From assembly GCA_949751835.1 (NCBI GenBank), contig CATKHK010000002.1, positions 744,001-808,000 of the forward strand: 64,000 bases of DNA, in the 5' to 3' direction. Below, one piece after another: positions 26,101-61,158 of this stretch. A model generated the notes under the pieces. It made no database searches. It was given only the letters and a program-made list of their open reading frames with translations, and had not been told where the DNA came from. This DNA comes from Blepharisma japonicum (taxonomy: Eukaryota; Ciliophora; Heterotrichea; Heterotrichida; Blepharismidae). The stretch's first letter is position 1. Each line of letters starts with the position of its first letter. Position numbers and translations under genes: made by a program.

Positions 26101-26461
26101 CAAGCGTAGCGCCAATAATAAGACTTAAAGTCCCCATGACCAGAAGGATTCTGAGAATTTTGTCACCTAGTGCATCCCAGCATAGCTCGCAAAAAGTATC
26201 ATTCTTTTTTTCTTCCCTTTTATTTGACCCGAAGGCAAGTATTCTATCTTCGTTTAAATCACTAGTTCTGAGACCTACACTAAAGTCCACAGCCAGAAGA
26301 TCTTGGAAGGCATTAATTCCTCCCAGATCTTCAATTTTGGTAATTTCCTCATCGAATTTTCGATCCATGTATGTATCGACTAGCTTAATTAGCTCCTCCT
26401 TTGAGATAAACTTGGAAGCGGCTAACAGCGTTCTTGATGCTTGTTCTTGTTGTTCAGCCAT
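23198..26461 (-). CDS. Plasma-membrane-type Ca2+-transporting P-type ATPase (copy 1)
   Basis: 1087 residues from MAEQQEQASR; an upstream in-frame ATG would add 15 residues, but the chosen Met aligns with the tandem paralogue. It has ten expected membrane helices. Key sites: the TGES-like loop (SALTGENDNVEKEG), VAIPEGLPLAVT in M4 (Ca2+ site), the phosphorylation motif CSDKTGTLTKN, the nucleotide-binding KRKRGS region, MVTGDNPITA, and the hinge VTGDGTNDAPALKKANVGFA. These fit PMCA (type IIB). The C-terminal tail after the last helix is short (about 45 residues), with a basic patch (GSQSLKRHMT) but no clear long calmodulin-binding site. It exports Ca2+ from the cytosol or into alveoli. No intron. 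Confidence 0.95.
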   Translation of the reverse strand: MAEQQEQASRTLLAASKFISKEELIKLVDTYMDRKFDEEITKIEDLGGINAFQDLLAVDFSVGLRTSDLNEDRILAFGSNKREEKKNDTFCELCWDALGDKILRILLVMGTLSLIIGATLESHPEYAWIEGFAILMAVFIVVMVSSTNNYFKQKKFSELKNMHKNRSHLSVIRNGQILTMHPSEILVGDIVKLVQGEIIPADGILLKAQRMQTNESALTGENDNVEKEGHEECLKRLKEWMKKGTKAEGDHAKREIPSPIVISGTNVVEGSGDMVAIAVGDYSKEGRISGLAEQDEEMTPLEIKLENLADRISGLGLGAGIFVVLILWLRFVIELGTGANEWDTGDSITDLIYAVIVGITVIAVAIPEGLPLAVTISLAYSVRKMQKDMNLVKRLHACETMGGADCICSDKTGTLTKNVMEVQRYSVDGNLYDQPKFKTMFERHEDYFAFLKDAICLTSTARLERDDKEKIVEIGSKTELAMIKMLVALGHDDYMQIRQNVIKSIMVTNPFASKRKRGSVIVGYSKDLVRIYVVGASEYLVKSSKRQLTLDATLVEVDEDRRQNLKKDIETMAGQGLRTLGIAFKDLTADEMDKLNEVDKKGVPVLEKSGLTLLGIFGIYDPPRDEVTKAIQDCKNAYIKVRMVTGDNPITALAIARSIGIADDNSIAMIGEDFRKEVGGVICEECKTELCDCPRNSKNAGDRKVRNDVVGNFENFKRIIGHLDVLARSQPEDKYTLVTGLKQMGSVVAVTGDGTNDAPALKKANVGFAMGIAGTELAQEVADIILLDDNFNSIVKAVMWGRSIYDNIQRFIQFQLTVNVVAVTCAIVGAVTIKQSPLTAVQLLWVNLIMDTFASLALATEPPTDALLMRKPHNLSDFIITPRMFKQIFGQAIIQIAILFAMMYAGEYFIPEYGSGKRILYNPRSKDYVRSGRDYHFDGSKDYYDLYNDPDIGPSRMMTFIFNVFVLFQLFNEINSRKLLEEWNIMSNILQSWLFMAIWFFTFGIQVIMIQVGSWAMGCHLDGLTVEQWFICIAWGFVPIVWRFVIILVPFKTEIHTDDSKPASHLASSIHKGSQSLKRHMTSNYNP

Positions 26462-27681: not shown

Positions 27682-30600
27682 TTAAGGGTTATAATTACTT
27701 GTCATATGACGTTTCAAACTTTGACTGCCTTTATGAATACTGCTTGCAAGATGCGATGCTGGCTTATTATCATCAATTTGTATTTTAGTCTTGAACGGTA
27801 TCAAAATAATTAAAAATCTCCACACAATAGGCACAAATCCCCAAGCTATACAAATAAACCACTGTTCAACAGTAAGACCATCTAAATGACATCCCATAGC
27901 CCAGCTGCCAACTTGGACCATAATAACTTGTATTCCAAAAGTAAAGAACCATATACCCATAAAAAGCCAAGTATGACAAATATTTCCTAATATCCACCAT
28001 TCATCAAGCAATTTCCTTGAATTTATTTCATTGAATAATTGAAACAATACAAAAACATTAAAAATAAAAGTCATCATTCTGCTTGGGCCTATATCAGGGT
28101 CGCTATACAAATCATAATAATCTTTTTCGCCATCAAAATGATAGTCCCTTCCTGACCTTACATGATCTTCACTCCTCGGATTATATAAAATTCTATCTCC
28201 TGATCCATATTCAGGAATGAAGTATTCTCCTGCGTAAAACAATGCAAATAATATAGAAACTTGCATAATAGCTTGACCAAAAATGTGCTTAAACATTCTT
28301 GGGGTTATAATAAAATCTGTTAAATTGTGAGGTCTTCTTTTTAATAAAGCATCTGTTGGAGGCTCAGTTGCAAGCGCTAAGGAAGCAAAAGTGTCCATGA
28401 TTAAGTTGACCCAGAGGAGTTGAATAGCCATAAGTGGAGACTGCTTGACGGTGACAGCTCCTACAATTGCACATGTAACAGCTACGACGTTAACAGTAAG
28501 CTGGAATTGGATGAATCTTTGAATGTTATCGTAAATGCTTCTTCCCCATTTCACAGCTTTTACAATTGAACTGAAATTGTCATCAAGTAGAATGATATCG
28601 GCAACTTCTTGTGCTAACTCTGTTCCTGCAATACCCATAGCAAAACCTACATTTGCTTTTCTGAGAGCTGGAGCATCATTAGTGCCATCTCCTGTAACAG
28701 CAACAACACTTCCCATTTGTTTAAGACCAGTCACAAGTGTATATTTATCTTCTGGTTGAGATCTAGCTAGCACATCAAGATGTCCAATTATCCTCTTAAA
28801 ACTATCAAAGTTCCCAACTACATCATTTCTAACTTTTTTATCTCCAGCGTTTTTAGAGTTTCTCGGGCAGTCACAGAGCTCAGTCTTGCATTCTTCACAG
28901 ACAACGCCTCCAACTTCTTTTCTGAAATCTTCTCCAATCATCGCTATACTATTATCATCAGCAATTCCTATACTTCTGGCAATAGCTAAAGCAGTAATAG
29001 GGTTGTCTCCAGTAACCATACGGACTTTTATATAAGCAGTTTTACAATCTTGGATAGCTTTGGCAACTTCATCTCTTGGAGGGTCATAAATTCCAAAAAT
29101 CCCCAGCAGTGTTAACCCATTTTTTTCAAGAACTGGGACACCTTTTTTGTCAACTTCATTTAATTTGTCCATTTCATCTGCTGTCAAATCTTTGAAGGCA
29201 ATTCCTAGGGTTCTTAAGCCTTGTCCAGCCATAGTTTCAATGTCTTTCTTTAAGCTTTGTCTCCTATCTTCATCAATATCTACCTGAGTGGCATCTAAAG
29301 ATAACTGCCTTTTGCTTGATTTTACAAGATACTCTGAGGCTCCGACGACATATATTCTCACCAAGTCTTCAGAATAACCAACAATCACACTTCCTCTTTT
29401 TCTTTTTGATGCAAATGGGTTTGTTACTAAGACACTTTTTTGAATGTTTTGCCTAATTTGCATATAATCATCATGTCCAAGGGTTACTAGCATTTTAACC
29501 ATAGCGAGCTCAGTTTTAGATCCAATTTCAACTGTTTCATTTTTTTTATTTTTTTCAAGTCTGGCAGCTGAGGTTAGGCATATAGCATCTTTTAAGAAAG
29601 CAAAGTAATCTTCATGCTTTTCAAAAAGACTCTTAAATTTTGGTTGGTCATATACAGATCCATCTACTGAGTATCTCTGAACCTCCATGACATTCTTTGT
29701 GAGAGTCCCAGTTTTATCAGAGCAAATGCAGTCTGCCCCTCCCATGGTTTCACAAGCGTGAAGTCGTTTGACTAAGTTTTGTTCTTTTTGCATTTTTCTG
29801 ACTGAATAAGCTAATGAAATAGTGACAGCTAGAGGAAGACCTTCTGGGATGGCGACAGCAATTACAGTTATACCTACAATAACAGCATAAATTAAGTCAG
29901 TTATGCTATCTCCAGTATCCCATTCATTCGCTCCAGTGCCAAGCTCAATAATAAATCGAAGCCACAATATTAAAACGACGAAAATACCTGCTCCTAAGCC
30001 AAGTCCTGAAATTCTATCAGCTAAATGCTCAAGTTTAATTTCTAAAGGAGTCATTTCTTCATCTTGTTCTGCAAGACCTGAAATTCTTCCTTCTTTTGAG
30101 TAATCCCCAACTGCAATTACAACCATTTCTCCACTTCCTTCAACAACATTAGTTCCTGAAATTACAATAGGTGAAGGAATTTCTCTTTTTGCGTGATCTC
30201 CTTCAGCTTTTGTTCCCTTCTTCATCCATTCTTTAAGTCTCTTCAAGCATTCTTCATGACCTTCTTTTTCCACATTGTCATTTTCTCCAGTAAGAGCAGA
30301 TTCATTTGTCTGTAATCTTTGAGCTTTAAGAAGAATCCCATCAGCTGGAATAATTTCCCCTTGAACTAGCTTTACAATGTCCCCTACCAATACTTCACTT
30401 GGATGCTTTGAAGAATATTCTCCATTTCTCAAAACTGTTATAAGTGCTCGGTTTTTATGCTCATTCTTTAATTCAGAAAACTTTTTTTGTTTAAAGTAGT
30501 TGTTAGTTGAGGTTACCATAACAACAATGAAGACTGCCATCAAAATAGCAAAACCTTCAATCCAGGCATATTCTGGGTGCTTTTCAAGTGTAGCTCCAAT

Positions 30601-30945
30601 GATGAGGCTTAGAGTCCCCATTACCAGAAGGATTCTAAGAATTTTGTCACCTAGTGCATCCCAGCATAGCTCGCAAAATGTATCATTTTTTTTTTCTTCT
30701 TTTTTATTTGATCCAAAGGCATTTATCCTTTCTTCATTAAGGTCTCCAGTTCTCAGGCCTGTATTGAAGTCTACACCCAAAAATTCTTGAAATGAATCGA
30801 TTCCTCCTCGGTCTTCAATTGTGGTAATTTCCTCATCAAATTTTCGATCCATGTATGTATCCACTAGCTTGATTAATTCTTCTTTGGCAATGAATTTAGA
30901 AGAATGTAGTAGCATTCTTGACGCTTGTTCTCCTTGCTCAGCCAT
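27682..30945 (-). CDS. Plasma-membrane-type Ca2+-transporting P-type ATPase (copy 2)
   Basis: 1087 residues, the same length as the gene at 23198-26461 and very similar over its whole length. Long blocks are identical, including the last 23 residues. The same catalytic motifs are present: CSDKTGTLTKN, MVTGDNPITA, GDGTNDAPALRKANVGFA and VAIPEGLPLAVT. Differences cluster in the N-terminal 60 residues, the loop after the phosphorylation site and the M7-M8 loop. Most DNA differences are at third positions, as expected under selection to keep the protein. It is a tandem duplicate in the same orientation, so dosage or stage-specific use is possible. Both copies look functional. Confidence 0.95.
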   Translation of the reverse strand: MAEQGEQASRMLLHSSKFIAKEELIKLVDTYMDRKFDEEITTIEDRGGIDSFQEFLGVDFNTGLRTGDLNEERINAFGSNKKEEKKNDTFCELCWDALGDKILRILLVMGTLSLIIGATLEKHPEYAWIEGFAILMAVFIVVMVTSTNNYFKQKKFSELKNEHKNRALITVLRNGEYSSKHPSEVLVGDIVKLVQGEIIPADGILLKAQRLQTNESALTGENDNVEKEGHEECLKRLKEWMKKGTKAEGDHAKREIPSPIVISGTNVVEGSGEMVVIAVGDYSKEGRISGLAEQDEEMTPLEIKLEHLADRISGLGLGAGIFVVLILWLRFIIELGTGANEWDTGDSITDLIYAVIVGITVIAVAIPEGLPLAVTISLAYSVRKMQKEQNLVKRLHACETMGGADCICSDKTGTLTKNVMEVQRYSVDGSVYDQPKFKSLFEKHEDYFAFLKDAICLTSAARLEKNKKNETVEIGSKTELAMVKMLVTLGHDDYMQIRQNIQKSVLVTNPFASKRKRGSVIVGYSEDLVRIYVVGASEYLVKSSKRQLSLDATQVDIDEDRRQSLKKDIETMAGQGLRTLGIAFKDLTADEMDKLNEVDKKGVPVLEKNGLTLLGIFGIYDPPRDEVAKAIQDCKTAYIKVRMVTGDNPITALAIARSIGIADDNSIAMIGEDFRKEVGGVVCEECKTELCDCPRNSKNAGDKKVRNDVVGNFDSFKRIIGHLDVLARSQPEDKYTLVTGLKQMGSVVAVTGDGTNDAPALRKANVGFAMGIAGTELAQEVADIILLDDNFSSIVKAVKWGRSIYDNIQRFIQFQLTVNVVAVTCAIVGAVTVKQSPLMAIQLLWVNLIMDTFASLALATEPPTDALLKRRPHNLTDFIITPRMFKHIFGQAIMQVSILFALFYAGEYFIPEYGSGDRILYNPRSEDHVRSGRDYHFDGEKDYYDLYSDPDIGPSRMMTFIFNVFVLFQLFNEINSRKLLDEWWILGNICHTWLFMGIWFFTFGIQVIMVQVGSWAMGCHLDGLTVEQWFICIAWGFVPIVWRFLIILIPFKTKIQIDDNKPASHLASSIHKGSQSLKRHMTSNYNP

Positions 30946-41379: not shown

Positions 41380-41932
41380 TAAAATTATATTTGGTGATAG
41401 ATATATCTCCTAATATCCATGAAATAAAATTTTAATTTTATTGGTAAACTTGGGTATTAAATATAATCAAAGATTTATAGATTTATAAATGAAGATAATT
41501 GAGGTGATTTATTTTAGCATTTGCTTGGGATATAAAATTAAACCGTTAATCAAAGTTGTATTGAGAGTTTGATTTTAATTTCATAAAAGGAGTTTCATAA
41601 ACAATTAAGTAAGAATTTGGCAAAATTATTGGGAAAATGAGATCAGATTTTGTGTTATGAAGCTAAATCTCTTTGTGGAGAAAATTTGGCTGAGGTTATG
41701 ATATAAATGTTTGGACATAAAATGGAATAGATATAATGATGTCATCAATAAATGCAATTATACCTATAATAGAGGATATCATATACTTAGAGAGAATAAT
41801 GCAATTAATTTCAAATTATTTAGTAATAATTTGAAATCATTTCTAAATTTTTTAACTTTTAGTCCCTAGTGATAATGATCCCAGCATTCCATATTTTATT
41901 TATATAAAAAGCTAATAACTTACTTGAAATCT
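41380..41932. other. Divergent spacer with one strong hairpin
   Basis: Lies between the minus-strand 202-residue gene and the AGC kinase. It is AT-rich. The only structure noted is the 13-bp hairpin at 41808-41837. Confidence 0.45.
41808..41837. repeat. Perfect 13-bp inverted repeat, 4-nt loop
   Basis: ATTTCAAATTATT and AATAATTTGAAAT are exact reverse complements around TAGT. It sits about 95 bp upstream of the AGC kinase ATG and could be a dyad protein-binding site or a hairpin in the leader. Confidence 0.5.
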
Positions 41933-43033
41933 ATGGGAAGTTGCAATTTTAAGTCAGAAGACGCAGATCCAACAGTTTCTATCTCCAAAACCCATTTCCA
42001 ATTTCACTATGTAATCGGAAAAGGAGGTTTCGGCAAGGTTTGAAAAGTCGAGCTAAAAAAGACAAGAGAGATTTTTGCAATGAAAGAAATGTCAAAAGCC
42101 AGAATCCTTGCAAAGAAAAGCGTGAACTCAGTCTTAAACGAACGACAGCTATTGGCAACACTTAAACATATGTTTATAGTGAATATGCAATATGCTTTCC
42201 AAGATAAAGAAAACATTTATCTTGTTATGGACCTGATGCCAGGAGGTGATCTTAGATATCATCTAGGCCGACAAAAAAAATTCACAGAAGCTCAAAGTAA
42301 ATTTTTTATCGCTTGTATTTTAATTGCTCTAGAATATTTGCATAACAGCGGAATTTTGCATAGAGATGTAAAACCAGAAAATCTGGTTTTAGATGAAAAA
42401 GGATACGTAAGATTAACAGATTTTGGAATTGCAAGAGTGTGGAACCCTGATAACGCTAAAGACACTAGCGGCACCCCTGGATATATGGCACCAGAAGTGA
42501 TGTGTCGGCAAAATCATGGAGTTGCTGCTGATTATTTTGCCTTGGGGATTATTGCTTATGAGTTTATGAATGGGACAAGACCTTACCAGGGTAAAGCTAG
42601 AAAACAAGTAAGGGAGCAGATATTGGCTAAGCAAATCCAAATAAAACAAGAAGAAATCCCTGAAGATTGGTCAATTGAAGCTGCTGATTTTGTTAATAGG
42701 GTATGAGTTATATAGCTTATCCAGAGAAAGCCTGTTAACCGATTAGGATTAAACGGCCCTGATGAAGTGAAAAATCATCCTTGGTTCCGAGACTTTGATT
42801 GAAAAAAATTAACTGATAGAAGAATGGAATCACCATTTATTCCTAGTCAGAATGATGATAATTTTGATTTAAAGCTTCATCTCGCAGATGATCCTTGAAA
42901 AGATGCAGAAAGCGAATCCTATCAGCAGAGCGTCGAGCTTCTGAGGACTCCTTCAACACAAGCACTTTTTGCTGGATATTTCTATGATATTAATCAAAAT
43001 CCTGGCACAGAAAGTGAATCCACAAAAAATTAA
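41933..43033 (+). CDS. AGC-type serine/threonine protein kinase
   Basis: Spliced length is 361 residues, with Trp-coding TGAs (the first in the Gly loop, GKGGFGKVWKV) and a 15-nt intron at 42701-42715. The kinase domain runs from about residue 25 to 280: Gly loop, AMKEM Lys, HRDVKPENLVL, LTDFGIARVW, GTPGYMAPEV, and after the intron NRLIQRKPVNRLG. The C-terminal tail (about 80 residues) includes ...FDWKKL and FIPSQNDDNF, as in the AGC extension, but no clear FxxF hydrophobic motif. The N-terminus MGSCNF offers Gly2 and Cys4 for possible myristoylation and palmitoylation. All catalytic residues are present. It resembles the cAMP/cGMP-dependent or YANK-like branches without a regulatory domain. 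Confidence 0.9.
42701..42715 (+). other. 15-nt intron of the AGC kinase gene
   Basis: GTATGAGTTATATAG. Removal restores VNRLIQRKPVNRLGL, a conserved block in kinase subdomain XI. Retention ends the protein at the TAG. Confidence 0.92.
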
Positions 43034-45021: not shown

Positions 45022-46395
45022 ATGGCGGATATAGGTATCAAGGAGGAAAGAATTCCAGTGGCCTTTTTCAAAGATAAGAGCAGGATTGAAACTTTGAAAA
45101 AGTCGGCTGAAAAATATTCCGACCAAGGCAACTTTCATAAAGCATGCAATGCTTATGAAAACATAGTTCAAAAAGATCCTTTAAGCGAAAAATCCTGGAT
45201 TTCTTTAGGGCATTGCTATTATATAACTCAAGACTACAAGAAGTGTTATGCTGCCTACCAAAAAGCTATGAACATTCCTAAAGGGCGCTTAAACCCTCAG
45301 CTCTGGTATGGCTTAGGAATCCTTTGTCAAAGATTTTCTTATTATAGCCAGGCCGAAATGGCATTTCTGGAAGCATTAAAATGTGATCCAGAATTTGAAG
45401 AAAAACAAACCATATTATTAAAACTTGGGATTTTGTCCAAACAAGCTCAAAAATATGAAGAAGCTATCAATTTACTTAAAGGCTGCATACAATGTGATAG
45501 CAGAAATATCAATATTGTAACGCAAGCTTACTGCTGTATGGGATTTTGCTATAATCAGCTTAAGAAATTTGGCGAATCCTTGATGTCTTATAGATATGCG
45601 GTTTCTGTAGAGGCAAATCAATATACATTGGCATGCCTTGCATGGGAACTGTTTACCTTAGGCCATTTTGATGAGGCCCATCAGTGCTTGGAGTTTGCGA
45701 ATAAAGCTGATAAAAAAATAGAGAACTATGAAGAGAAGCTTTATTATATGTTGGCTATGTCAAATTTACAAAAAAATAAATATGAGATTTCATCAGAATA
45801 TTTTGAGAAAATATTAAAAAAAAATTCATGCCATTTTTCCGCTTGCTGCAGCTATGGAATTTTAAAAGCTAAAGAATCAAAACAAGCAGAAGCAGTGCAA
45901 CTCTTTTTCAAAGCTGACCAAGCAGGGAATAAAGCAGAAGCTTGACTAAATCTCGGAGTATTATATGAACAATGCGGCCAAATACAAGATGCAACTATTG
46001 CTTATCAAAAAGCGCTAACGTTGAAAAATTATGAATTAATTGCGCAGGAAAGAATTAATAATGTTGGAACTGGCAAGTGCAACTGTGAAATGCTAGTTCA
46101 TCCTTTATTTGACCCTACAGAAATTCCTGTAGCAAAAATTGATAATAATCCTTTAGACTCAAAAACTAATAAATTTATTTGGATTCCTCCCCCTGAATTT
46201 TTCGCATGGCATGCAGAAAATTTTTATCATGGATTTGTGAATTTTATGCAACATATGAGAAGCTGTGGACAATTTGATGGAAGCATGATAAAAGAAAACA
46301 GTTATGAGGAACAAGCTTCTGAAATTCAGAAAAGAGAAAATGATAGAGGAGCAGTTCAAGAAGCAAAAGGAAGAAAAAGAAGAAAAATAGAATAG
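45022..46395 (+). CDS. TPR protein resembling Cyc8(Ssn6)/UTX repeats
   Basis: 457 residues, with one Trp TGA near residue 309. About eight tetratricopeptide repeats cover residues 25-345, for example LSEKSWISLGHCYYITQDYK, PQLWYGLGILCQRFSYYSQA and TILLKLGILSKQAQKYEEA. The 'LWYGLGILCQRF' repeat is typical of the Cyc8/UTX subgroup, whose yeast member is a transcriptional corepressor with Tup1. The C-terminal 110 residues leave the TPR pattern, contain a WIPPPEFFAWH segment, and end in a Glu/Lys/Arg tail with a nuclear-signal-like GRKRRKIE. This tail is duplicated in decayed form at 49781 and 53903. Corepressor function is inferred from repeat similarity only. Confidence 0.72.
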
Positions 46396-47705
46396 AAGAT
46401 ACAATGAATTTATCAATAATTATCTGATAATTATAATTTTAATAGATTCTAGGTGAGATTTTAATTTATTGAATAACTTATAATAAAGTTATAATTAAAG
46501 AAAAACTTTAGAAATGATGGCGACATCAAATAGGATTGTACGACAAATCACTGATTCAATGGATAGAGGCAGCCAAATTATTTGCTTACTTAATGATAAT
46601 TATCCTAATATTAGCTATAAGCAGCTGAAGCAAGATAAGGCATCTATTAAAATTTTGTTGTCTGAAATGGGAAAGAAAGATGATATGAATTATTTATATC
46701 TTGCTTTCAAATATTTTGTTATTCTGAATTCAGCACCTTTGAAATGGCAAGAATTAAACTCTATTTTAAAAATAGCAATCAAACTTAAAAGAATTTTGAA
46801 GGGATAATGGATTCTATAATTTCAGATAATTTAAGTATAATCACAAATTGCATTAGAACTACTGACGAATTAGAAGGTATTTTAAAATTATCAGAGACAA
46901 TTGAAAAATTATCAAAAATTAATTCTGAATATGAATCATTTTTTAAAAAATCAATTGAAAACCAATTTAATATAATTTGCACATCAGAAGACAAAATTAG
47001 CCTCAAAAAAAGCCTTCATTTTCTATCAAGAATTAAAAATATTGCAAAAAGTAAACTAATAAAAGCAGCAATTATTTCTGTATCATCTGTTTCCTTAGAT
47101 TGAGTTAAGCACGAAATAGAAATTTTTTCCCAGATCGGAGAAGAAAACGTTATTAGTGAATTTGAGAATGACTGCGCGGAGTTTATCGAGCTTATTGATG
47201 GAATGCCAATTAAAAGCAAAGTGTTTTCAGACAAAATAAATTCTGTAAAAAGAAAATTACCAAAAAAGAAAACTAATATTCCTGCTAAAGCTAATATTAT
47301 AAGTGAGGAAGTGGAAGATAGTAAAGAAGATTTTTGCTCTGTTTTCGAAAATGAAAGATTGCCAATTGATCAAATTTATTTTACTGAAACTGTTTCTGAA
47401 GTTTTTTGGTATAATGGGGAAAATCTGCTTGTTCAAATCATCAAGGGTTTATATAATGGTGGAACTATATGTGTAAAGCTTTATCATCAAAAATGCAAAA
47501 TCCCATGCGAATCCTTTTTAAATGATTTATTAATTACAAAAATTCTTAGTGAAAAGCATCATTGTTTTTTGAAATATATTGGATGAAGCTATTATTGTGA
47601 AAACCTTCACATACTACAAAGTAAACATGTTTATTCAATAATAACAGAAGATTTTACTTGTACATTGATGGATGATATAATTGCTCGATATGAAAGCAAT
47701 CATAA

Positions 47706-47948
47706 ATACAATAGAGTACAAAATAATAAAAAAAAACAAAATTTATTAAATTCTAGGCTATCTTGCCTATTAAATTGATTTCAGTCAAAATTGAACACAT
47801 GAAACCACTCAAAGAATAATATTTGAAAACTAGAAAGGAGGACAGAGCTCTTGAAGATAATGTGATATTGAATGTGTAATGTAAATATCTTATTAATTTA
47901 TTGTATGTATGCTATTAAATTGATTACAAAATAGCATATTTATTGTAT
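47706..47948. mobile_element. About 240-bp insert with 8-bp terminal inverted repeats (MITE- or IES-like)
   Basis: The insert interrupts copy 1 between the codons for ...NHKY and TYKEYSEI, which are contiguous in copies 2 and 3. Its ends are ATACAATA (47706-47713) and TATTGTAT (47941-47948), exact reverse complements, flanked by TA-containing sequence. Inside are two near-direct repeats of CTATTAAATTGATT and of TACAAAATA. It has no coding capacity. Either a small non-autonomous DNA transposon or a germline eliminated sequence kept in the somatic genome would fit. Confidence 0.5.
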
Positions 47949-48540
47949 ACGTATAAAGAATATTCAGAAATCGTTAAAAATCTTTTAGAAGCATTTTCTA
48001 TAATAGAATCAGAAAATTTTCATCATCTAGACTTAAAACCTCAAAATATTCTTATGACTCAAGCTAAGAAGGTCAAAATTGCAGGATTTAATGTTTCTAA
48101 ATTCTATGTTTGAGATAATAATCTTTTATATTCGAAAACCAATAAAACGATATGGAATGATTATTTTATGGCTCCTGAAATTTATCAAGCTTGCTTTAAT
48201 AGTAAAAGAACAATAAGAATTGAAAAAGAATTTGCGAAAAAGCAGATATTTATTCACTTGGACTTATTTTTATGCAAATGTACTCCTTACTTCCAATAGA
48301 AGAATTAAACACCCCTGAATATTTTGAAAAAATCGATAATTATTTATCAACTTTTAGGCCAAAAAATGTAGCTAATTTGCTGAGAGGCATGCTTATTATT
48401 GATAGCTCTCAAAGGGTGAGTTATAGAGAGAGTTTACAACGCTTTATAAATGAAGAAGTAATAAAAAGCAGTGATATATAAGTGAAATCTTTTGAATCAT
48501 TAAAAAATTCTGCTTTAATTGATAATACTAAGATTAACTA

Positions 48541-48830
48541 GTATTTAAAACTTGACTAACCTAGTAAGCAATTTTAAGTTTTCTTTTAAATATCCTATCA
48601 GTCGCTACCTTATCGATATAAAGAGGGTGTTTGCTTTGTCAGGTAGTACCTACTCCAGGATAGATTTTCTCTTTTTCCTTTTATCAATAACTACTAGTTA
48701 GGAGCACTCTATATCAAAACTCAAGTATTCATCTATAGGAGTTTTACGTAAGACTAGGCTTCTCCTTAGCATGCAACTTTTAATTGTGTTTTAATTAAAA
48801 GCTATCTTGCAAATTTAATACAGATTGACG
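48541..48830. mobile_element. Second, non-homologous insert in copy 1
   Basis: About 290 bases with no match in copies 2 and 3 lie between the segment for SALIDNTKIN and the region that resumes before LPDGVSLDFKKGF. It contains a 9-bp-stem hairpin (CTTTTAATT/AATTAAAAG, 48777-48801) and the short palindromes AGGTAGTACCT and AACTACTAGTT. The composition is less AT-rich than its surroundings. The ends are only roughly placed and terminal repeats are weak. The origin is unknown. Confidence 0.35.
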
Positions 48831-49780
48831 AGAGAAAACTAGAAATCAGCATAGATTAAGAGGATTTGGCGATAAATTTACCCGATGGAGTTAGTCTCGA
48901 TTTCAAAAAAGGATTTTATAAAGGAAGCCCAGTTCTTATTAGAATTTTCAAACATCAGAGTGAAATTAAATTATATCCTTATTTTGAAGAAGCTAAATAC
49001 TTAGCATTTAAGAAAATTTGTTGTCTAATAGAAGGGGTAAATTTCATAAATGCAATTTTTATAAAAAAAGATATTTAGTAGATATCTGATTAATTTTTTT
49101 AATAAAAATTATGTTAGGTGTACGCTCATATAATTAAGGGAGATATTATTATAACATTTATTATTTATAAATTATAAATTAGACTTATTTTATTCAAAAG
49201 AATGGTTTTATTAAAAAAATTACTACATGGCTTTAATTTCTCAAAAATTTGTAATTTTTCTTTTGATTTGCTTACTTATCAGAGAATTAAAATTTTAACA
49301 AGATTGCACACTATTATTATAAACTACTATGGCTTGATTTATGATAGATCATAAACTAATTCACTCTTCCTTATTCAGAATTATGTAACAGAAGATTAAT
49401 TACAGAAATCACAAATCAGAGGAATCAAAGAGAATGCTTTGACGAAAATCATCTAAAATCTTATATTAGATTACTTTTAGGAGGTTTTAAGGAACTTAAG
49501 AAGTTATATATAAGTCATGAAAATATAAGTTCTCACAGCATTTTGTATAATGCAAAAAATAGTCTTAAAATTACTTATTCATCGTTCCAAAAACAAAATT
49601 AATTAGTAGTTGCAAATTTCCTGATAATGAAATAAGCTTTTTTCAAAATGAAGAAGGATATATGTCTCCAGAAATAGAAAAATATAATGGGAGCTCTCAA
49701 GTTAATATCGAAAAATCTGATGTCTATTCACTTGGTCTTGTATTTTGACAGATAGTCACACTTTGTCATGCTGGGTTTGT

Positions 49781-49990
49781 TTAAGCTCGACCCATTTTAT
49801 GCAATACATGAGAAGATGCGGACAATTTGATGAAAGCATGATAAAAGAAAACAGTTATGAAGATGAAGAGCAAGCTGCTGAAATTCAGACAGGAGAATAT
49901 GATAGAGATGAAGCTCAAGCAGCAAAGGAAGAAAAAAAAGAAAAATTAAATAGAAGACACTATGCATCTATTAGCATTTATCTGAAAACT
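49781..49990 (+). pseudogene. Decayed copy of the TPR gene tail (unit 2)
   Basis: Encodes HFMQYMRRCGQFDESMIKEN and then an acidic tail (SYEDEEQAAEIQTGEYDRDE), matching FMQHMRSCGQFDGSMIKEN near the C-terminus of the TPR protein (46245-46390). It begins abruptly after the wreck of copy 1, where GGGTTTGTTT meets ATTTTATGCAA, close to GGATTTGTGAATTTTATGCAA of the TPR gene. It lacks a start and the TPR domain, so it is not expected to be a gene. Confidence 0.8.
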
Positions 49991-50125
49991 TTAATTTTTA
50001 ATTTAAGGCATAATTTAAGATTTTAACTTATTGTCCAAGTGGGAGGATTTTTTATAGTCGCAATAAAGATTTTGGCTTACCGAAATATATCACTTTTTAA
50101 TTATAGATTCTTGCATTATATTAAG

Positions 50126-52712
50126 ATGGTTACGCCTATTAGAACTATAAAGGAAATTATTGATTCAATAAGCAGAGGAAAAGAAACGTTGGCTATTCTG
50201 AAAAAAGATTATATGATAACCAGCTTTGAGCAACTAAAACAACAAAAAGAAATTATAAAGGATATTTTGTCACAGAAAATTAGATCTAAGGAGGATGCAA
50301 ATAATTTATACCATGCTTATAAAATATCTCTTGCCTTCAAATCTCCTTGCTTTACATGGAAAATTTGTGCTTCGGCTTTAAATGCAGCCATAAAGCTCAA
50401 AAAATATTTCAAAGAAATATTAAAAACAATTATTTCAAATAATTTAGGAAATATCAAAAGTATTCTAAGCGATTGCTATGATTTAGAGGCTACTTGGAAT
50501 ATCTCAGAAGCACTTAGTTGCATCTTTCCATCTATAGGTGAATTTGAAAAATTAACCTTAGAGAAATCGATTAAAGAATCCTTTGACTTAATTTGGAATT
50601 CGAAAAACGAAGATATTTATGAAAAAAGTCTCAAGTTTCTATTACAAGTAAAAACAGAAAGAAGAAGTGAGCTAATTAGAGTAATTAATTATGTGTCATG
50701 CTCCTCATTAGATTGAATTGAAAGCTCAAATAGGACTTATAAAGCTGTAAGCGATGCAGAAATTTTAAAAAAATTTGTGATTACTAGCAAAAAGCTTATT
50801 GGACTTGTTAAAGAAACCAAAATAAAAAATGCAGAAATATCAAAACTGTTAAAAGTTTCCAAAAATATTATATCAAAAATGGAAGCTAATATTGCCAGAA
50901 TTAGCAAGAGAGGTGAGGATATGAACGAGAGCAAGAATGATTTGCCAGAAAAAGAAAAAATAAAAAATGAAAATATCGAAAAAATAGAGAGAATCTGCGA
51001 AATTTCAGACTATATGGGAGAAAATGTCATAGTTTCAATCTGAAAAGGCGAATTAAAAAAAAAAAATATCCAATATGCATAAAATGCTATTATTATATAA
51101 GTGAAACTCCATGCAAGCTATTTATAGAAGATTTATTTCTTACTAGATATCTTAGTGAGAATCATGATTTATTTTTAAAATATTATGGCTGATCTTTCGA
51201 AAATCAAATTCGAGTGAAAGGAGGAGTCTATTCTCGCTATTCAATAATAACAGAAGACTTTGAGAGCACATTGATAGATGATATTATTTTTCGATATGAA
51301 AATAATAAGAAATATTCATATAAAGAATATTCAAAAATTATTATGCTTCTACTAGAGGGATTCTCATGGCTAGAATCAAAAAAACCCCTCATCTTAACCT
51401 AAAGCCTGATAATATTCTTATAACTTATGATAAAAAGATCAAGGTTGCTGGATTTAATGCTTCTAGAATATGTGCTAAATATGAAGATCTCTCTTTCTCA
51501 AGCAACAAGCTATGAAATGATTTTTATTTTGCCCCCGAGTTCTATCTTAATAGCGAAAGAGAAGATAATTTCGATTCAAGTTTTGCAAAAAATGCTGATA
51601 TCTATTCTTTGGGGCTCATTTTTATGCAAATGTATGCTTTACTTCCTATAAAAGAATTGAACACTCCTGAGTATTGTAGAGAGATCGACGATTATGTATC
51701 CCTCTTTAAGCCAAAAAATGTAGCTAACTTGCTTAAAGGTATGCTTGTTATTGATAGTGCTCAAAGAGTCAGCTTTAAAGATAGTTTAAGTAGTTTTATT
51801 AGTGAAGAAGAGAGAAGAAATATGGAGATAGAAGTTAAAATCGAAGAGCCAATAAAAATGTCTAATTTAATTGAAGACCATCTTATAGGCTTTTTAAGGA
51901 TCGAAACAAGCCTACTTCGTATCCAAGAATATATTCGCAGTGAAATAAGGACTTTATCTGATGGAGTGAGTCTTGAATTTAAGAAAGGGTTTTATAATAA
52001 GAGACAAATTCTCATTAGAACTTTTAGACATCAAGATGAAAATAAATTACTTCCATATATTGAAGAAGCAAGGCTACTGCAAAATTTAGCAGGAAGACAT
52101 TCTATTTTTATGGACTATTATGGCTTGATTTATGATAGTTCACAACCTGGCTCGCTTTCACTTATTACAGAACTTTGCAACTTTAGTTTGATGTCAGATA
52201 TCACACTTCGGAAGAAAATAGGAACTTATTATGGTGAAAGTACTTTAAAAAATTATATTGAATTACTTTTACAAGAATTTGCGCTTCTTAAGCAGTTTAA
52301 CATAGATCATAAGAATATAAAGCCTCATAATATTTTGTTTGATGCAGAAAATAAACTGAAGATCACTGGGTTTGTTGTTCCAAATACAGAAATTATTAGT
52401 ATTTGCAAATCTCCTGAAAATGAAAGAGACTTTTTACAAACTGAAGAAGGGTATTCCTCTCCAGAACTGATAAAATACAATGGTAGTTCTCAAATCGATT
52501 TCGAAAAATCAGATGTCTACTCACTTGGTCTTATAATTTGGCAGATGTGCACACTTCGTCACACATCAGAGTTTATCCCTGAAGGCTTAAGCTGTATTAG
52601 ACTTGGATGAATTTGCCAAATATTAGAATCAATGCTGCGCATATACCCGAACATGAGAAAAAATTTTGCTTCTTTGCATCAAGTATTGACTTCTATTAAA
52701 ACAAGCAACTAA
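50126..52712 (+). pseudogene. Tandem kinase-like gene, copy 2 (two one-base breaks in A-runs)
   Basis: Starts MVTPIRTIKEIIDSISRGKE and ends ...LTSIKTSN, very similar to copy 3 throughout. The frame slips once in a run of twelve A (51055-51066) and once in a run of seven A (51378-51384); everything else is open with TGA as Trp, and the last 330 residues are clean. The order is: helical N-terminal region (about 290 residues), kinase-like domain 1 (HLNLKPDN, AGFN), kinase-like domain 2 (HKNIKPHN, TGFV). Both breaks lie in homopolymers, so assembly error is a real alternative to loss of the gene, and so is slippage during expression. If intact, it would be about 860 residues. Confidence 0.65.
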
Positions 52713-52931
52713 TCGTCTAATAAGCAATCTAATTATTTATTTTATTAATTTAAAATTTTCAATTCCTAGATTATTATAGTATTTTTTATGATATTTCAAT
52801 GATTTATGCAATTTTTATTATTTAAAAAAAGAACGATTTACTTATATGTAATATAAAGCATTTTCTTAAATTTTTTGAGTTCATACTTCTGATATCAAGG
52901 TGCTTACTTTTTTATAGAGCAAAAAAACTCT

Positions 52932-52957
52932 ATTTTGTAAGGAAAGCCTTACAAAAT
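52932..52957. repeat. Perfect 11-bp inverted repeat, 4-nt loop
   Basis: ATTTTGTAAGG, loop AAAG, CCTTACAAAAT. Beyond it the arms continue imperfectly (AAAAAACTCT against GGGGTGTTTTT), giving a hairpin of about 50 nt. It may mark the end of an inserted element or a terminator-like structure. Confidence 0.55.
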
Positions 52958-53239
52958 GGGGTGTTTTTACCCTATAAAACTGATTATAATCATAGCTATA
53001 AGACCTATTTTAATGGCAGGGGATAATTGTAATCAATATTCATTATTCCTCTATTTCACTTTTTCGTGCTTGAACTCATACAGAGCTTAATATATATTTG
53101 TCTCAATTTATTATATATATGTAGAAAAAGGGAATGAACACAAAAATATGCCCTGAACTGCAGTCAAAGATTATGAGTTTGCTATGGAACCATGGATTAA
53201 ATCGATTCAAAGAATTATTTTAGTGACTATTAGCATTAG

Positions 53240-53560
53240 GAAGGTGAAATTGAAGGAGTTAATGACTTTTTTGACGATTTTTTTGAAGACGAGTACAAAG
53301 ATAATGGTTGGAGCTTAATGAGTATTCTTTCAGGTCTGAATTTTTACGAACTGTTGGTGCTTAGAGCACTCAGAATCTGAGAAGAATTATTGGATACATG
53401 ATAAATATTTTAGGTTTTGACAAGGATAATGCAGCACCAACCTAATTGATTGCCTTGAATCAGAAAGATGGCTGAGGGGAGAGCTAAGCGACCCAGAGGA
53501 AGAAAATCAAATATTTAAAGAAAAATTGGAGCATTTGAAACGGGAATTGAAATAGAAATT
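53240..53560 (+). pseudogene. Degraded coding remnant, unknown family
   Basis: Two protein-like pieces in different frames: EIEGVNDFFDDFFEDEYKDN with WSLMSILSGLNFYELLVLRA after it, and later CLESERWLRGELSDPEEENQ followed by a charged helix ending in TAG at about 53554. No start codon context is left. I cannot name the parent gene. It shares nothing I see with the kinase-like copies. Confidence 0.35.
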
Positions 53561-53902
53561 TAAAACATGAATTGAAAAATAATTTGAAGGTCAGGAGAAA
53601 GGGAAGCAGAAAGAGAGACAGAAATTTAATCAAATATTAAATTGAGTATAAGCAGAAAGTGAATGGAAATAGAAGTAGAAATAGGAGCAGAAGTCGAAGC
53701 AGAAATCGAAGCATTAAAATATAAAGAAGAGAATCATAAATAATGTAGAAGAAGAGCTGGAAAACTAGAAAGAAACACAAAGTTTACACTAATGAGTAGC
53801 ATAAGCTACACTAAGTCATTGCATTTTAAAGTAATTATAATTATAAGTCTCAATTTACACAATTTATGTATTTTTTCATGTGCAACCTTTTTTATATAAT
53901 AT

Positions 53903-54046
53903 GAAGAAAATTTTTTATAAGGATTTGATAATTTTATGTGAAATATGAGAAACTGTGGGCAGTTTGATATGAATAGGATAAAGAAAGATATTATGAGAAG
54001 CAAACTGCTAAAAATTAAAGAAGAAAAAATTGAGATGGAAATATAG
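53903..54046 (+). pseudogene. Decayed copy of the TPR gene tail (unit 3)
   Basis: Reads GFDNFMWNMRNCGQFDMNRIK and a Lys/Glu tail ending in TAG, matching GFVNFMQHMRSCGQFDGSMIK of the TPR gene with the Trp from TGA. It is more diverged than the unit-2 fragment. The match begins a little further upstream (GAAGAAAATTTTTTATAAGGA against GCAGAAAATTTTTATCATGGA). It has no start codon. Confidence 0.75.
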
Positions 54047-54193
54047 CAGTAAAAGCAGGATATATTATAAGTAGTACAATGAATTTATTAGAATATCTGA
54101 AATTTAATTAGACTCATTAACTAATTGAGGCATTTAACTTATTAAAATAAGCTATTGCCAAAATTTATTTATAGAATCTAATATTATATTAAT

Positions 54194-56767
54194 ATGGCCA
54201 CGCCTAATTGAACTATAAAACAAATTGTTGATTCAATAAGAGGAAAGGAGATCTTAGATCATGTTGAAAACGAATATAAGATATCCTCCTTTGAACAACT
54301 GAATCAAGAAAAAGTGCACATAAAATATGATTTGTCACAATTTATTAATGAGGTTGATTCTAAACATCTATATCATGCTTACAAAATAAATCTTGTCTTT
54401 AAGTCTCAGCAATTAGCATGAAGAGCTTGCATTTCTGGTTTAAAAGCTGCCATGAAGCTTCAAAAAACATTTAAAGGATTTTTGCAAACTATAATTTCAG
54501 ATAATTTAGAACAAATTAAAAGTAATATCAATGAGTGCAAGGAATTAGAGGGTATTTGGAAATTCTCAGAGGCGATTCATTTTATGTCAAAATATATTAG
54601 TTCATTATATATATCAATCCTAAAAAAATCAATTGATGATTCCTTGAATTCAATTTACTCTTTAGGAGACAAAGATACTCTAAAAAGAAGCCTTAAATTT
54701 TTATCAGAAGTCAAGACAGAGAGAAAAAGTGAATTAATTAAAGTGATTATCTCGGTATCGTTTTCTTCATTAGATTGAATTAAAAACCAAAAAAAAAGTT
54801 TAAGAGCACTCAGAGATCCAAAAATATTAAAAATGTTTGAAGATGATAGTTGAGAGCTGATTGATCTTATTGATTTAATACCAATTAATAGCAAAAATCT
54901 ACAAGAAAATGTTAATACTGTAAAACAAATGCTACCAAAAAGAAAAGTTGATAATATTAGTATAAGTAGAAATGGAAATGAGCTAATGAATGAGAGCAAA
55001 ATTGATTTTTTGTCAGATGATAAAAAATTATTAAGTGAAAGAGTTGAAAAGATAGCAAAAATTTATGAAACTTCAGACTATATGGGAGAAAAAATAATGG
55101 TTTCAATCTGAAAAGGTTTTCTTGATAGTAATGTTCCTATATGTATTAAATGCTATTATCATAAAGCTAAAATCCCATGCGAACACTTTAAAGCTGATTT
55201 ATTGCTAACTAAATATCTTAACGAAAAACATAATTTGTTTTTGAAATACATTGGCTGAACTTTTGAAGATGCAATTCAATACAAAGATGGAATCTATTTT
55301 CGTTATTCAATTGTAACAGAAGATTTTGAAAGTACATTGATAGATGATATTATTACTCGTAATCAAAACAATCAGAAATATTCATATAATGAATTTTCGA
55401 ATATTGTTAAAATTCTTTTAGAAGGATTTTCATTTTTAGAATCAAAAAAAATTCTTCATCATAACTTAAAGCCCCATAATATTCTTATAATTCAAAATGG
55501 AAACATCAAAATTGCTGGATTTAACGCCTCTAGAATTTATACCCCAAACGATGACTTGTCATATTCAAATAACAACAAATGGCACGACCTGTATATTGCA
55601 CCTGAGATCTTTCTTAAAAATAAAACAGAAAAAAAATTTGATTCAAGTTTTGCAAAAAATGCAGATGTTTATTCTCTGGGGCTCATTTTTATGCAAATAT
55701 ATTCTTTACTCCCTATAGAAGAATTGAACACTCCTTATTATTATGGGAAAATTGATAATTATGTATCCCTTTTTAAGCCAAAAAATGTAGCTAACTTGCT
55801 TAAAGGTATGCTTGCTATCGATAGTACTCAAAGAGTCAGCTTTAAAGATAGTTTAAGTAGTTTTATTAGTGAAGAAGAGAGAAGAAATAGAGAAATGCAA
55901 GTTAAAATCGAAGAGCCAATAAAAAGTTCTAATTTAATTGAAAGCCATCTTATAAACTTTTTAAGAATCGAAGCAAGCCTACTTCGTATCCAAGAAGATA
56001 TTTGTAGTGAAGTAAGGACTTTATCTGATGAAGTGAGTCTTGAATTTAAGAAAGGGTTTTATAATGAGAGACAAGTTCTCATTAGAACTTTTAGACATCA
56101 AGATGAAAATAAATTACTTCCATATATTGAAGAAGCAAGACTACTGCAATTTTTAGCAGGAAAACATTCTATTTTTATGGACTATTATGGCTTGATTTAT
56201 GATAGTTCACAACCTGGCTCGCTTTCGCTTATTACAGAACTTTGCAACTGTAGTTTGATGTCAGATATCACACATCGGCAAAAAAGAAAAATTTATTTTG
56301 TTGAAAGTGATTTAAAAAATTATATTGAATTACTTTTAAAAGGATTTGCGATTCTTAAGCAATTTAACATAGATCATAAGAATATAAAGCCTCATAACAT
56401 TTTATTTGATGCAGAAAATAAACTGAAGATTACTGGGTTTGCTGTTTCAAATACAGAAATTATTAGTATTTGCAAATTTCCTGAAAATGAAAGAGACTTT
56501 TTACAAACTGAAGAAGGTTATTCATCTCCAGAACTGATAGAATACAATGGTAGATCTCAAATCGATTTCGAAAAATCAGATATCTACTCACTTGGTCTTA
56601 CGATTTGGCAGATGTGCACGCTTTGCCACACATCAGGATTTACTTATGGAGGCTTAAGCTGTATTCAACCTGAATGAATTTACTTTATATTACCATGAAT
56701 GCTACGCCAAGGCCCGAACAAAAGGAAAAATTTTGCTTCTTTGCATAAAATTTTGACTTCCTTTTAA
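54194..56767 (+). CDS. Tandem pseudokinase protein, copy 3 (open)
   Basis: 857 residues from MATPNWTIKQIVDSIR to ...ASLHKILTSF, open throughout when TGA is Trp. Residues 1-300 are helical and match no domain I know. Kinase-like domain 1 (about 300-560) has a kept beta3 Lys (VPICIKCYY) but HHNLKPHNILI for HRDLKPEN and AGFN for DFG, then APEI and DVYSLGLIFMQIYSLLP. Domain 2 (about 610-850) has Arg for the beta3 Lys (VLIRTF), HKNIKPHNILF, ITGFA, SSPEL and DIYSLGLTIWQMCTL. Both lack the catalytic-loop Asp and the metal-binding Asp, so phosphotransfer is unlikely. It is probably a scaffold or allosteric regulator. It is the only undamaged member of the array. Confidence 0.85.
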
Positions 56768-56909
56768 AATAAATATTTAATTATTTAGTAAGCAATCTAA
56801 TATCTCGATTATTAGATGGTTTAATGAATTTTAACAAGATTTCAATGATATATGTGATTTTCATTATTTAACAAAAGAGCACCATTTATTTATATGTAAA
56901 ATAAGTGAT

Positions 56910-57449
56910 TTATTTTAGGTCTGGAGCGTAATCCCATGAAGATATATCTTGAAAATCCAAATCTACTTTTGTATTTTGGATTTTATATAAATTTAAATTA
57001 CTATGTGATCCTTGCGATTGCAGATTTGATTGTATCCTTCTTGGATTCAAAGACATTGCTAGTCTTGACTTCCTTGCATTAATTTTTGGTGTCCGAATTG
57101 TCCTTTTTTGCTTTAATTTCTCAGAATTTTCAAAATTATCATGCATATGAGTAACAATCAAGCTTTTTCTTAGCTTTGAATCATTAAAACTTTCTTCTTT
57201 TGATCATTGAGAAACTCCAAACTTTTGTCCTTGGATTCTTCATATTGAATTATTTTCTATTTTAGTTACTGGCAAGGTAAGTCTAGGTCTATTCAGTCTT
57301 ATTTTCTGATGCCCAAATCTATCAAATTTGTAATGGTGAAATATATTATTATGAGTTCCTTGTGAAATTGCTATAAAAGATCGTAACGGCAAATGCTCAG
57401 GTTTATCATTTGGGGATGCACCTAAATATACACCTTTGCAATAGTTCAT
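56910..57449 (-). CDS. Hypothetical 179-residue basic protein
   Basis: Open through two Trp TGAs (after ENNSI, and in SQW). It starts MNYCKGVYLGASPNDKPEHL. Basic and polar, with motifs such as HYKFDRFGHQKIRLNRPRL and TIRTPKINARKSRLAMSL. No domain, signal peptide or membrane helix is seen. It converges on the copy-3 pseudokinase gene with about 140 bp between stops. Function is unknown. Confidence 0.5.
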
Positions 57450-59616: not shown

Positions 59617-61158
59617 ATGAAATGCAAAGAAGAGTACAGTGGATGGTCTTTAGGCCGACAGCTGCAGGTTTCTTTTGTAACAACTACGTTTTTCTTAGCA
59701 GCGCTACTAGTTTTGATCACAAAATTCCAATTAGACTGGCTTAGAGACAGTCTTTTATCAAAAACTCATGATGTTCTTGCAAACTCAATTACAGACCAAA
59801 TGGGAACTTTAGCAAGAGAAAAATCTGCTGTAATCGAGCAAGAACTAGACAATGACATTGATTTTGTACAACAGCTAAAAGAGCTAGACAAAACTATGCT
59901 GGGATGAGGAAGTTACAAAGATCCTATTATTGTCCCAGATGCGCCTATTACTGATAATGATATTTCTTCATCTTCATTATCTTTAAATGAATATGGGGTA
60001 AAAGTTACATATTCCACAGGGGTTTTTCAGACAAGAATTGACCCTATTTCAACTGAGGGTGAACTGCTTATGAATAACTCAGCTGCGATGGACCAGATAT
60101 ACCCAGCCCTTAATAGAAAAAGATATTTAGCAATGTACGCAGGATTTGCAACAGATGAAATTATACATTATTATCCTGGGAAAATTTTTAGTGATTCTTC
60201 ATATACACCGATAGTCCAAGAATGGTATTATAGCGGTATTAATAAAGAAGGGTCTATTATAATAACTGAGCCTTATACAGATACAGACTCAGGAGAGCTG
60301 ATATTTTCAATTTCTACAGCTATCTCAAATGCTAAAGGTGTTTCTGGGATCGATATTTTAGCTTCTTACCTCCAGCAGCCCTTTGTAAATGTTACCATTT
60401 TAGACTCAGGGTTCATGTTTCTTATAAGTTCAGGAGGAGTTGTAATTTACGCCCCAGAGTCCTGGGCTTATATGGGTACCGCATTCAGAATTTATGACCA
60501 AACCTTAACTGGGATTTCCCAAAGCCAATGAAATAGCTGAATTTTTAACCCAGACCCATACAATAGGTTTTCATTCTCAGATATAAACGGGACTAAATAT
60601 TATGCTGTAATAAATCCTGTATACCCAGAAAATATGCCTAATATAACCCATTATGTTATGTCGTGTGCTGTACAAAGTGAAACTGAAGATATGCTTGATA
60701 GTATTTCTAATAATTACCAAAATACTTATTATACCATTTTCTTTGTGATTCTTGGGATTGCTGTAGCTGTTTTTATAGTGATTACGACTTCTGCTTATTT
60801 TATTACAAGGAAAACTAGCAGACAATTGAAAAATATTGAGACTGTTTTTTCGAGGATTACTCATAAAGGGCTTTTTCCGAATTTAATCAAAGGAATTGGG
60901 GCTGATGTATTATTGGCTGACTCTTCAGGGATGAAAAATTTGATGGAAGCTTCACTAGATAAGGTGGATAAGATAAGAGATTTAGAAGACCAATATGAAA
61001 GCTATGAATGGGGACTTACGAGACCTGCTGATAAGTACTTGTTTACAAGATGGAATGAAAGATTGTATCCTTTGAATTGGCATAATGAAAAACAAATGAG
61101 CTGGAGACATGTATTGCCGAAGCTTACAAAAATTGGCCAAGAAACAAGGCCTGGTTAA
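59617..61158 (+). CDS. Double-Cache-type membrane receptor without output domain
   Basis: 513 residues, with Trp TGAs at about 59905 and 60529. One transmembrane helix near the N-terminus (residues about 17-40, QVSFVTTTFFLAALLVLI), then a roughly 310-residue extracytoplasmic region. This contains WYYSGINKEGSIIITEPYTD with GELIFSISTAI and GVSGIDI, the classic Cache/PDC-sensor core. A second helix (about 365-390, TIFFVILGIAVAVFIVITT) leads to a HAMP-like linker (RQLKNIETVFSRIT) and a 90-residue cytosolic tail without kinase, cyclase or MCP domain. It is likely a small-molecule sensor signalling through partners. The start lies 21 bp after the VPS33 stop. Confidence 0.72.

Follow-up and report, generated by a model that had tools for sequence, protein, structure and literature searches.

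A tandem array of a gene for two degenerate kinase-fold domains at three stages of decay, with signs of sequence exchange between copies

Kinase-fold domains stand in series in the JAK kinases, in which a pseudokinase domain (JH2) is joined to a second, active kinase domain (JH1), and also in GCN2, while MLKL joins a helical four-helix bundle to a pseudokinase. Our study concerns a tandem array of three copies of a gene for two kinase-fold domains preceded by a helical domain, found in a 64,000-nt stretch of contig CATKHK010000002.1 (the window, in which all positions are counted from its first letter). Two described groups come closest. Kinetoplastid kinatases consist of a dual-specificity phosphatase, two pseudokinase domains and leucine-rich repeats, and a regulatory role has been proposed for them; kinase-plus-phosphatase proteins are also noted in Tetrahymena (PMC2175518). 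The 92 plant tandem kinase-pseudokinase proteins (TKPs) of one report, such as WTK1, combine a pseudokinase with a putative kinase and contain no further conserved domain (PMC6170490).

The locus is best explained, with a probability that we put somewhat above even, as a birth-and-death array with gene conversion, coding for what would be a catalytically dead tandem-pseudokinase scaffold or allosteric regulator. Direct repeats, self-BLAST and three-way alignment agree on three homologous copies, all on the + strand and arranged head to tail, which stand at three stages of decay: copy 1 is a wreck, copy 2 has two frame breaks and copy 3 is open in one frame when TGA is read as Trp (Table 1). 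The three copies in series and their stages of decay had been noted in a preliminary description of this DNA, and both points were upheld. The array start of 46200 given there was not, as this position falls within an upstream TPR-repeat gene. From about 46198, the 3' tail of that gene is the left end of a duplicated unit that is larger than the kinase-like gene, comprising the TPR tail, intergenic DNA and the gene itself, and present as three tandem copies. By self-BLAST, unit 2 (49794-52863) and unit 3 (53931-56911) match over ~3.1 kb at 76 %, and unit 1 matches units 2 and 3 in pieces only, at 61-77 %. Such an array would have arisen via unequal crossing-over (or segmental duplication), each new copy bringing its own upstream region, and would then have followed birth-and-death with gene conversion.

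The architecture described earlier was recovered in copy 3, in which a helical domain of ~280 residues (previously put at roughly 300) is followed by two kinase-like domains in series. Each kinase-fold domain alone matches Pfam PF00069 with 73.6 bits against a curated cut-off of 31.7, which places both in the kinase superfamily. At E ≤1, 2229 PDB sequences matched copy 3, the 60 listed all being named as kinases (best 3.1e-11), and kinase names were found in all 50 listed PDB entries that matched the fold of the full-length model. NCBIfam gave nine matches to copy 3, all far under their cut-offs, the strongest being prokaryotic kinases. In domain 1, HRD has become HHN (Asn 424) and DFG has become GFN (Gly 442); in domain 2, the VAIK Lys is replaced by Arg 631, HRD by HKN (Asn 730) and DFG by GFA (Gly 748). 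Both domains are pseudokinases by sequence, having lost at least one of the VAIK Lys, HRD Asp and DFG Asp. The same catalytic residues are lost in copy 2 (HLN and GFN in domain 1; HKN and GFV in domain 2). Domain 1 of copy 1 retains an HRD-type Asp (HHLDLKPQN) and reads GFN at the DFG place, so that there the pseudokinase label rests on the lost DFG Asp; domain 2 of this copy reads HEN at the HRD place and its DFG place is lost to a frame break. The earlier term dual-pseudokinase is therefore apt for both domains of copies 2 and 3, and needs this qualification for domain 1 of copy 1.

Because both acidic catalytic residues are lost in both domains, the sequence argues against phosphotransfer. 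That domain 1 is an unconventional yet active kinase seems quite improbable: it retains in copy 3 the beta3 Lys 319 (ICIK), the KPxN segment with Asn 429, APE and DVYSLG, and the HRD-type Asp is still present in copy 1, but copies 2 and 3 have Asn for the HRD Asp and Gly for the DFG Asp, and GFN replaces DFG in all three copies. As part of a catalytically dead scaffold or regulator, domain 1 could bind nucleotide without phosphotransfer, as the beta3 Lys and the KPxN Asn are kept, domain 2 would serve as a rigid docking module and the helical domain would bind a partner. Domains 1 and 2 share 24.5 % identity over 261 residues (pairwise E 2.8e-19), and both match the one outside kinase in the window that served as a yardstick (41924-42712) more weakly (3e-10 and 5e-9). 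It is likely that one of the two domains arose from the other through an internal duplication (domain 2 from domain 1, or conversely), and since both domains read K-I-x-G-F at the DFG place, this duplication would probably have followed the loss of the DFG Asp.

Compared with kinatases, copy 3 likewise has two pseudokinase domains in one protist protein, and the HRD Asp is replaced in all kinatase kinase domains; however, its 857 residues contain no phosphatase or leucine-rich-repeat Pfam match at E ≤1 and carry a helical domain instead. With the plant TKPs it shares two kinase-fold domains in series, of which at least one is degenerate, but copy 3 shows degeneracy in both and has a helical domain in front of them, which puts it outside the TKP definition. 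Copy 3 thus departs from each group in a defining feature, and we regard its layout as one more variant among known multi-pseudokinase proteins. JAK and GCN2 resemble it in having kinase-fold domains in series, although, unlike JAK, neither domain of copy 3 has the catalytic residues and no FERM or SH2 Pfam match was found at E ≤1. MLKL also has a helical N-terminal part followed by a pseudokinase, whereas copy 3 has 14 helices over ~240 residues and two kinase-fold domains, and the 50 entries listed, out of 551 fold matches to the N-terminal model, do not include MLKL. It had been said earlier that no named family with this layout was known, and a signalling or scaffold protein peculiar to this lineage had been thought possible. 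Indeed no named family was matched, yet two pseudokinase domains in one protein have a precedent in the kinatases (PMC2175518). Among the papers listed in full-text searches on dual or tandem pseudokinases and on pseudokinases in Stentor coeruleus, none had a title that pointed to a ciliate protein so arranged; that the domain layout is new is suggested by this negative result and is not proved by it.

The N-terminal domain was modelled alone with AlphaFold2 from an alignment of four rows (copy 3, copy 2 and two pieces of copy 1), and the predicted helices span residues 5-246. Foldseek found no match to this model at E ≤0.001 among PDB and viral models; the best E was 0.057, for a designed helical protein, and the query template modelling score (TM-score) was ≤0.34 among the 50 listed of 551 matches. 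The listed PDB matches (E 0.06-0.91) were to designed helical proteins, importin alpha, adaptor and coat subunits, 14-3-3 and others. No Pfam or NCBIfam family scored above cut-off for this domain and no PDB sequence matched at E ≤5. For a named N-terminal domain, whether MLKL-like or of the ARM/HEAT kind, there was neither an above-cut-off profile match nor a significant fold match. In a search for internal helical repeats, the best offset (46, with windows of 25 and 35 residues) was not above position shuffles, and to call the predicted domain solenoid-like is a guess.

Comparison of copies 2 and 3 over 3002 aligned columns revealed 31 % divergence, then 7.8 % in a tract of ~980 bp and then 28.5 %. 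One changepoint gained 71.5 log-likelihood units, compared to a maximum of 7.4 in 300 shuffles, and two changepoints gained 111.8 units (the shuffle control being for one changepoint only). The synonymous difference per site in 60-codon windows was 0.38-0.59 as far as codon 510, dropped to 0.21-0.25 in the two windows that follow and was 0.05-0.17 in the rest, and since it falls in step, the drop in divergence does not come from protein selection alone. A tract at 7.8 % against ~30 % elsewhere indicates that copies 2 and 3 exchanged sequence, by gene conversion or the like, and their homogenised 3' halves are not independent witnesses. The TPR tail and the relic at the head of unit 2 are 12 % divergent to 46400 (the stop codon ends at 46395) and 42 % divergent beyond, with a changepoint gain of 30.2 against a shuffle maximum of 8.0; part of this contrast could reflect constraint on the tail as coding sequence. 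The relic in unit 3, however, is no more similar to the TPR tail than its surroundings are, and for the other two unit pairs the 5' halves gave no changepoint above shuffles (6.5 versus 8.3; 5.9 versus 8.8). The exchange tract might be alike enough to confuse a short-read assembler. However, an artefact of assembly is a very unlikely source of the three copies: outside the tract, copies 2 and 3 are about 30 % divergent, synonymous divergence (dS) among all three is 0.56-1.10 for the N-terminal and first kinase domains, as expected of distinct sequences, and units 2 and 3 each start with their own, different TPR-tail relic.

Ratios of nonsynonymous to synonymous divergence (dN/dS) were estimated by NG86, which uses simple counts, some of them near saturation here. 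Between copies 2 and 3 the ratio was 0.50 for residues 1-280 [274 codons, confidence interval (CI) 0.34-0.75], 0.34 for residues 281-560, the last part of which lies inside the tract (276 codons, CI 0.23-0.49), 0.82 for residues 570-857 (284 codons, CI 0.54-1.48) and 0.51 for all (843 codons, CI 0.41-0.63). Singleton ratios before the tract (residues 1-482, 469 codons) were 0.79 for copy 1, 0.51 for copy 2 and 0.55 for copy 3, and inside it (317 codons) they were 0.56, 0.70 and 0.36, the values for copies 2 and 3 being based on few changes. Copy 1 is thus the most relaxed before the tract (0.79) and not inside it (0.56), and these ratios suggest that copies 2 and 3 have been under modest constraint through most of their separate history. 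Against a functional scaffold or regulator, a working gene would be expected to show stronger constraint than a ratio of ~0.5, the value of 0.82 is compatible with no constraint on kinase domain 2 since the exchange, and the full-length AlphaFold model is poor [predicted local distance difference test (pLDDT) score 49, with the kinase C-lobes <50]. The whole family could then be decaying, copy 3 being merely the least damaged and none of the copies a working gene, which would suit the weak overall constraint and its absence, as far as detectable, from kinase domain 2. We regard this as unlikely, given that 857 codons are open despite a GC content of 0.286, that the singleton ratio of copy 3 stands at 0.55 ahead of the tract and 0.36 within it, and that the helical domain is predicted to fold confidently from only four aligned rows.

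The claim of two homopolymer breaks in copy 2 was confirmed, at runs of 12 and 7 A (A12 and A7). Copy 2 is open as three frame pieces, none of which contains an in-frame stop. Its spacing to copy 3 along the repeats is 4068, 4066 and 4067 in turn, showing that both breaks shift the frame in one sense modulo three and so do not cancel. An intron was rejected as their cause: in a scan of 51030-51110 and 51350-51410, the sole GT..AG stretch of 15-16 nt, at 51032, corresponds to coding bases in copy 3 and is of a length that would leave the frame broken. A possible alternative, though one we do not favour, is that copy 2 is a working gene with homopolymer errors of assembly, which would make the array two live genes and one pseudogene. 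Both breaks are located in A-runs, the A12 run exceeds all 43 runs of ≥7 counted beyond the array in open reading frames (ORFs) of at least 200 codons (the longest being 10), and the absence of stops from the pieces and a pre-tract singleton ratio about that of copy 3 point the same way. Nevertheless, break 2 lies in a run of only 7, whereas 30 such runs in other ORFs keep frame (ORFs chosen for openness), and copy 3 has four runs of 7-9, unbroken. Inside the tract, moreover, the singleton ratio of copy 2 is above that of copy 3, on the few changes mentioned, and the use of HiFi reads in the Blepharisma stoltei assembly (PMC9942806) counts against homopolymer errors if the window comes from that species.

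Copy 1 had been called a wreck with inserts; the inserts are present, but this description was incomplete, as the 3' end of the copy is also missing and unit 2 starts at that point (~49785). Relative to both other copies it has four single-base losses (near 46794, 48241, 49376 and 49575), several in-frame stops and three insertions of roughly 240-290 nt. Blepharisma internal eliminated sequences (IESs) are described as having TA-type direct repeats or boundaries, inverted ends that vary and sizes above 115 bp without periodicity, and about 70 % of them as intragenic (PMC9942856). Insert 1, the ends of which were selected by a search near the alignment gap without a chance control, resembles a retained IES, and this is a lead; for inserts 2 and 3 the resemblance is only suggestive.

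At 52876-53078, the spacer that separates unit 2 from unit 3 contains a hairpin (52910-52979, arms of 33 nt) bracketed by possible TGAGTTCA/TGAACTCA ends, recognized by eye, and this region is possibly the relic of a small mobile element. The sequence at 53100-53850 is decayed and of low complexity, without a long frame, and one 45-residue piece of the spacer (53255-53389) gave nothing above cut-off in Pfam. The GC content is 0.316 and reading TGA as Trp opens the genes of the window, which is consistent with a Blepharisma macronuclear contig; B. stoltei is described as having UGA as Trp, 66 % AT, introns mostly of 15-16 bp and a PacBio HiFi assembly (PMC9942806). The kinase gene 3.5 kb upstream of the array (41924-42715, + strand) keeps HRD, DFG and APE; its frame stops at about position 243 of the 263 in the profile, where there may be a tiny intron, and its AGC label was given by eye. 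A second tandem pair consists of two intact P-type cation ATPases of 1087 aa each on the - strand (23198-26461 and 27682-30945), which are 90.3 % identical across their whole length. At 59617-61158 (+ strand), the encoded protein shows resemblance to a Cache-type sensor domain (dCache_1, 42.8 bits with a cut-off of 45; MCP-like_PDC_1, 27.9 bits with a cut-off of 27).

Table 1. Features of the array and its surroundings, in order of position
Feature	Position	Strand	Basis or remarks
Upstream TPR-repeat gene, intact, 457 aa	45022..46395	+	ORF; Pfam TPR_2 7.7e-24
Copy 1, pseudogene of the dual-kinase-fold gene	46517..49784	+	Three-way alignment, frame analysis
Insert 1 in copy 1, 239 nt	47707..47945	+	Both ends TA; terminal inverted repeat of 7 nt, TA included (TACAATA/TATTGTA)
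Insert 2 in copy 1, 276 nt	48514..48789	+	Direct repeat TTTAATT (7 nt) at flanks
Insert 3 in copy 1, about 276-287 nt, GC 0.19	49007..49293	+	Boundaries uncertain
TPR-tail relic, head of unit 2	49794..50033	+	Self-BLAST: matches 46241-46471 at 79 %
Copy 2, same architecture, two frame breaks	50126..52712	+	ORFs, three-way alignment
Copy 2 frame break 1, A12 run	51055..51066	+	Alignment, homopolymer scan
Copy 2 frame break 2, A7 run	51378..51384	+	Alignment, homopolymer scan
Homogenised tract, copy 2	51575..52553	+	Changepoint analysis; partner 55642-56620
Spacer between units 2 and 3: hairpin and decayed low-complexity stretch	52864..53827	+	Repeats, self-BLAST
TPR-tail relic, head of unit 3	53888..54174	+	Self-BLAST: matches 46198-46500 at 66 %
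Copy 3, intact gene, 857 aa	54194..56767	+	ORF, eight TGA codons read as Trp
Copy 3 residues 1-280, predicted all-helical N-terminal domain	54194..55033	+	AlphaFold2 pLDDT 81.7, predicted template modelling score (pTM) 0.76
Copy 3 kinase-fold domain 1, about residues 284-566	55043..55891	+	Pfam Pkinase 2.3e-20; motif alignment
Homogenised tract, copy 3	55642..56620	+	Changepoint analysis; partner 51575-52553
Copy 3 kinase-fold domain 2, within residues 571-857	55904..56764	+	Pfam Pkinase 2.3e-20; motif alignment

Pattern scans for relatives gave 6 matches in viral contigs and 26 in bacterial or archaeal genomes, none of which was confirmed by tblastn; relatives are not expected there. A broader reading, which we offer as speculation and consider rather doubtful, is that of a heterotrich-specific family of enzymatically dead tandem-pseudokinase scaffolds that diversifies by birth-and-death, with exchange falling mostly on the second kinase module and divergence on the helical and first kinase modules, as in receptor or decoy families, and with dead copies that record germline insertions no longer removed by somatic genome editing.

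In summary, apart from the exchange tract and the order of residue loss, the array is ordinary gene-family turnover. The copies suggest that in domain 1 the DFG Asp (gone in all three) was lost before the HRD Asp (gone in copies 2 and 3), unless the pseudogene copy 1 regained its HRD Asp by chance. The exchange tract is a warning that whole-gene trees built from such arrays would mislead. A massively expanded kinome has been reported for Stentor (PMC9371601, citing a preprint). If expressed, copy 3 would give the same group of ciliates a protein of two dead kinase domains and an unmatched helical partner domain.

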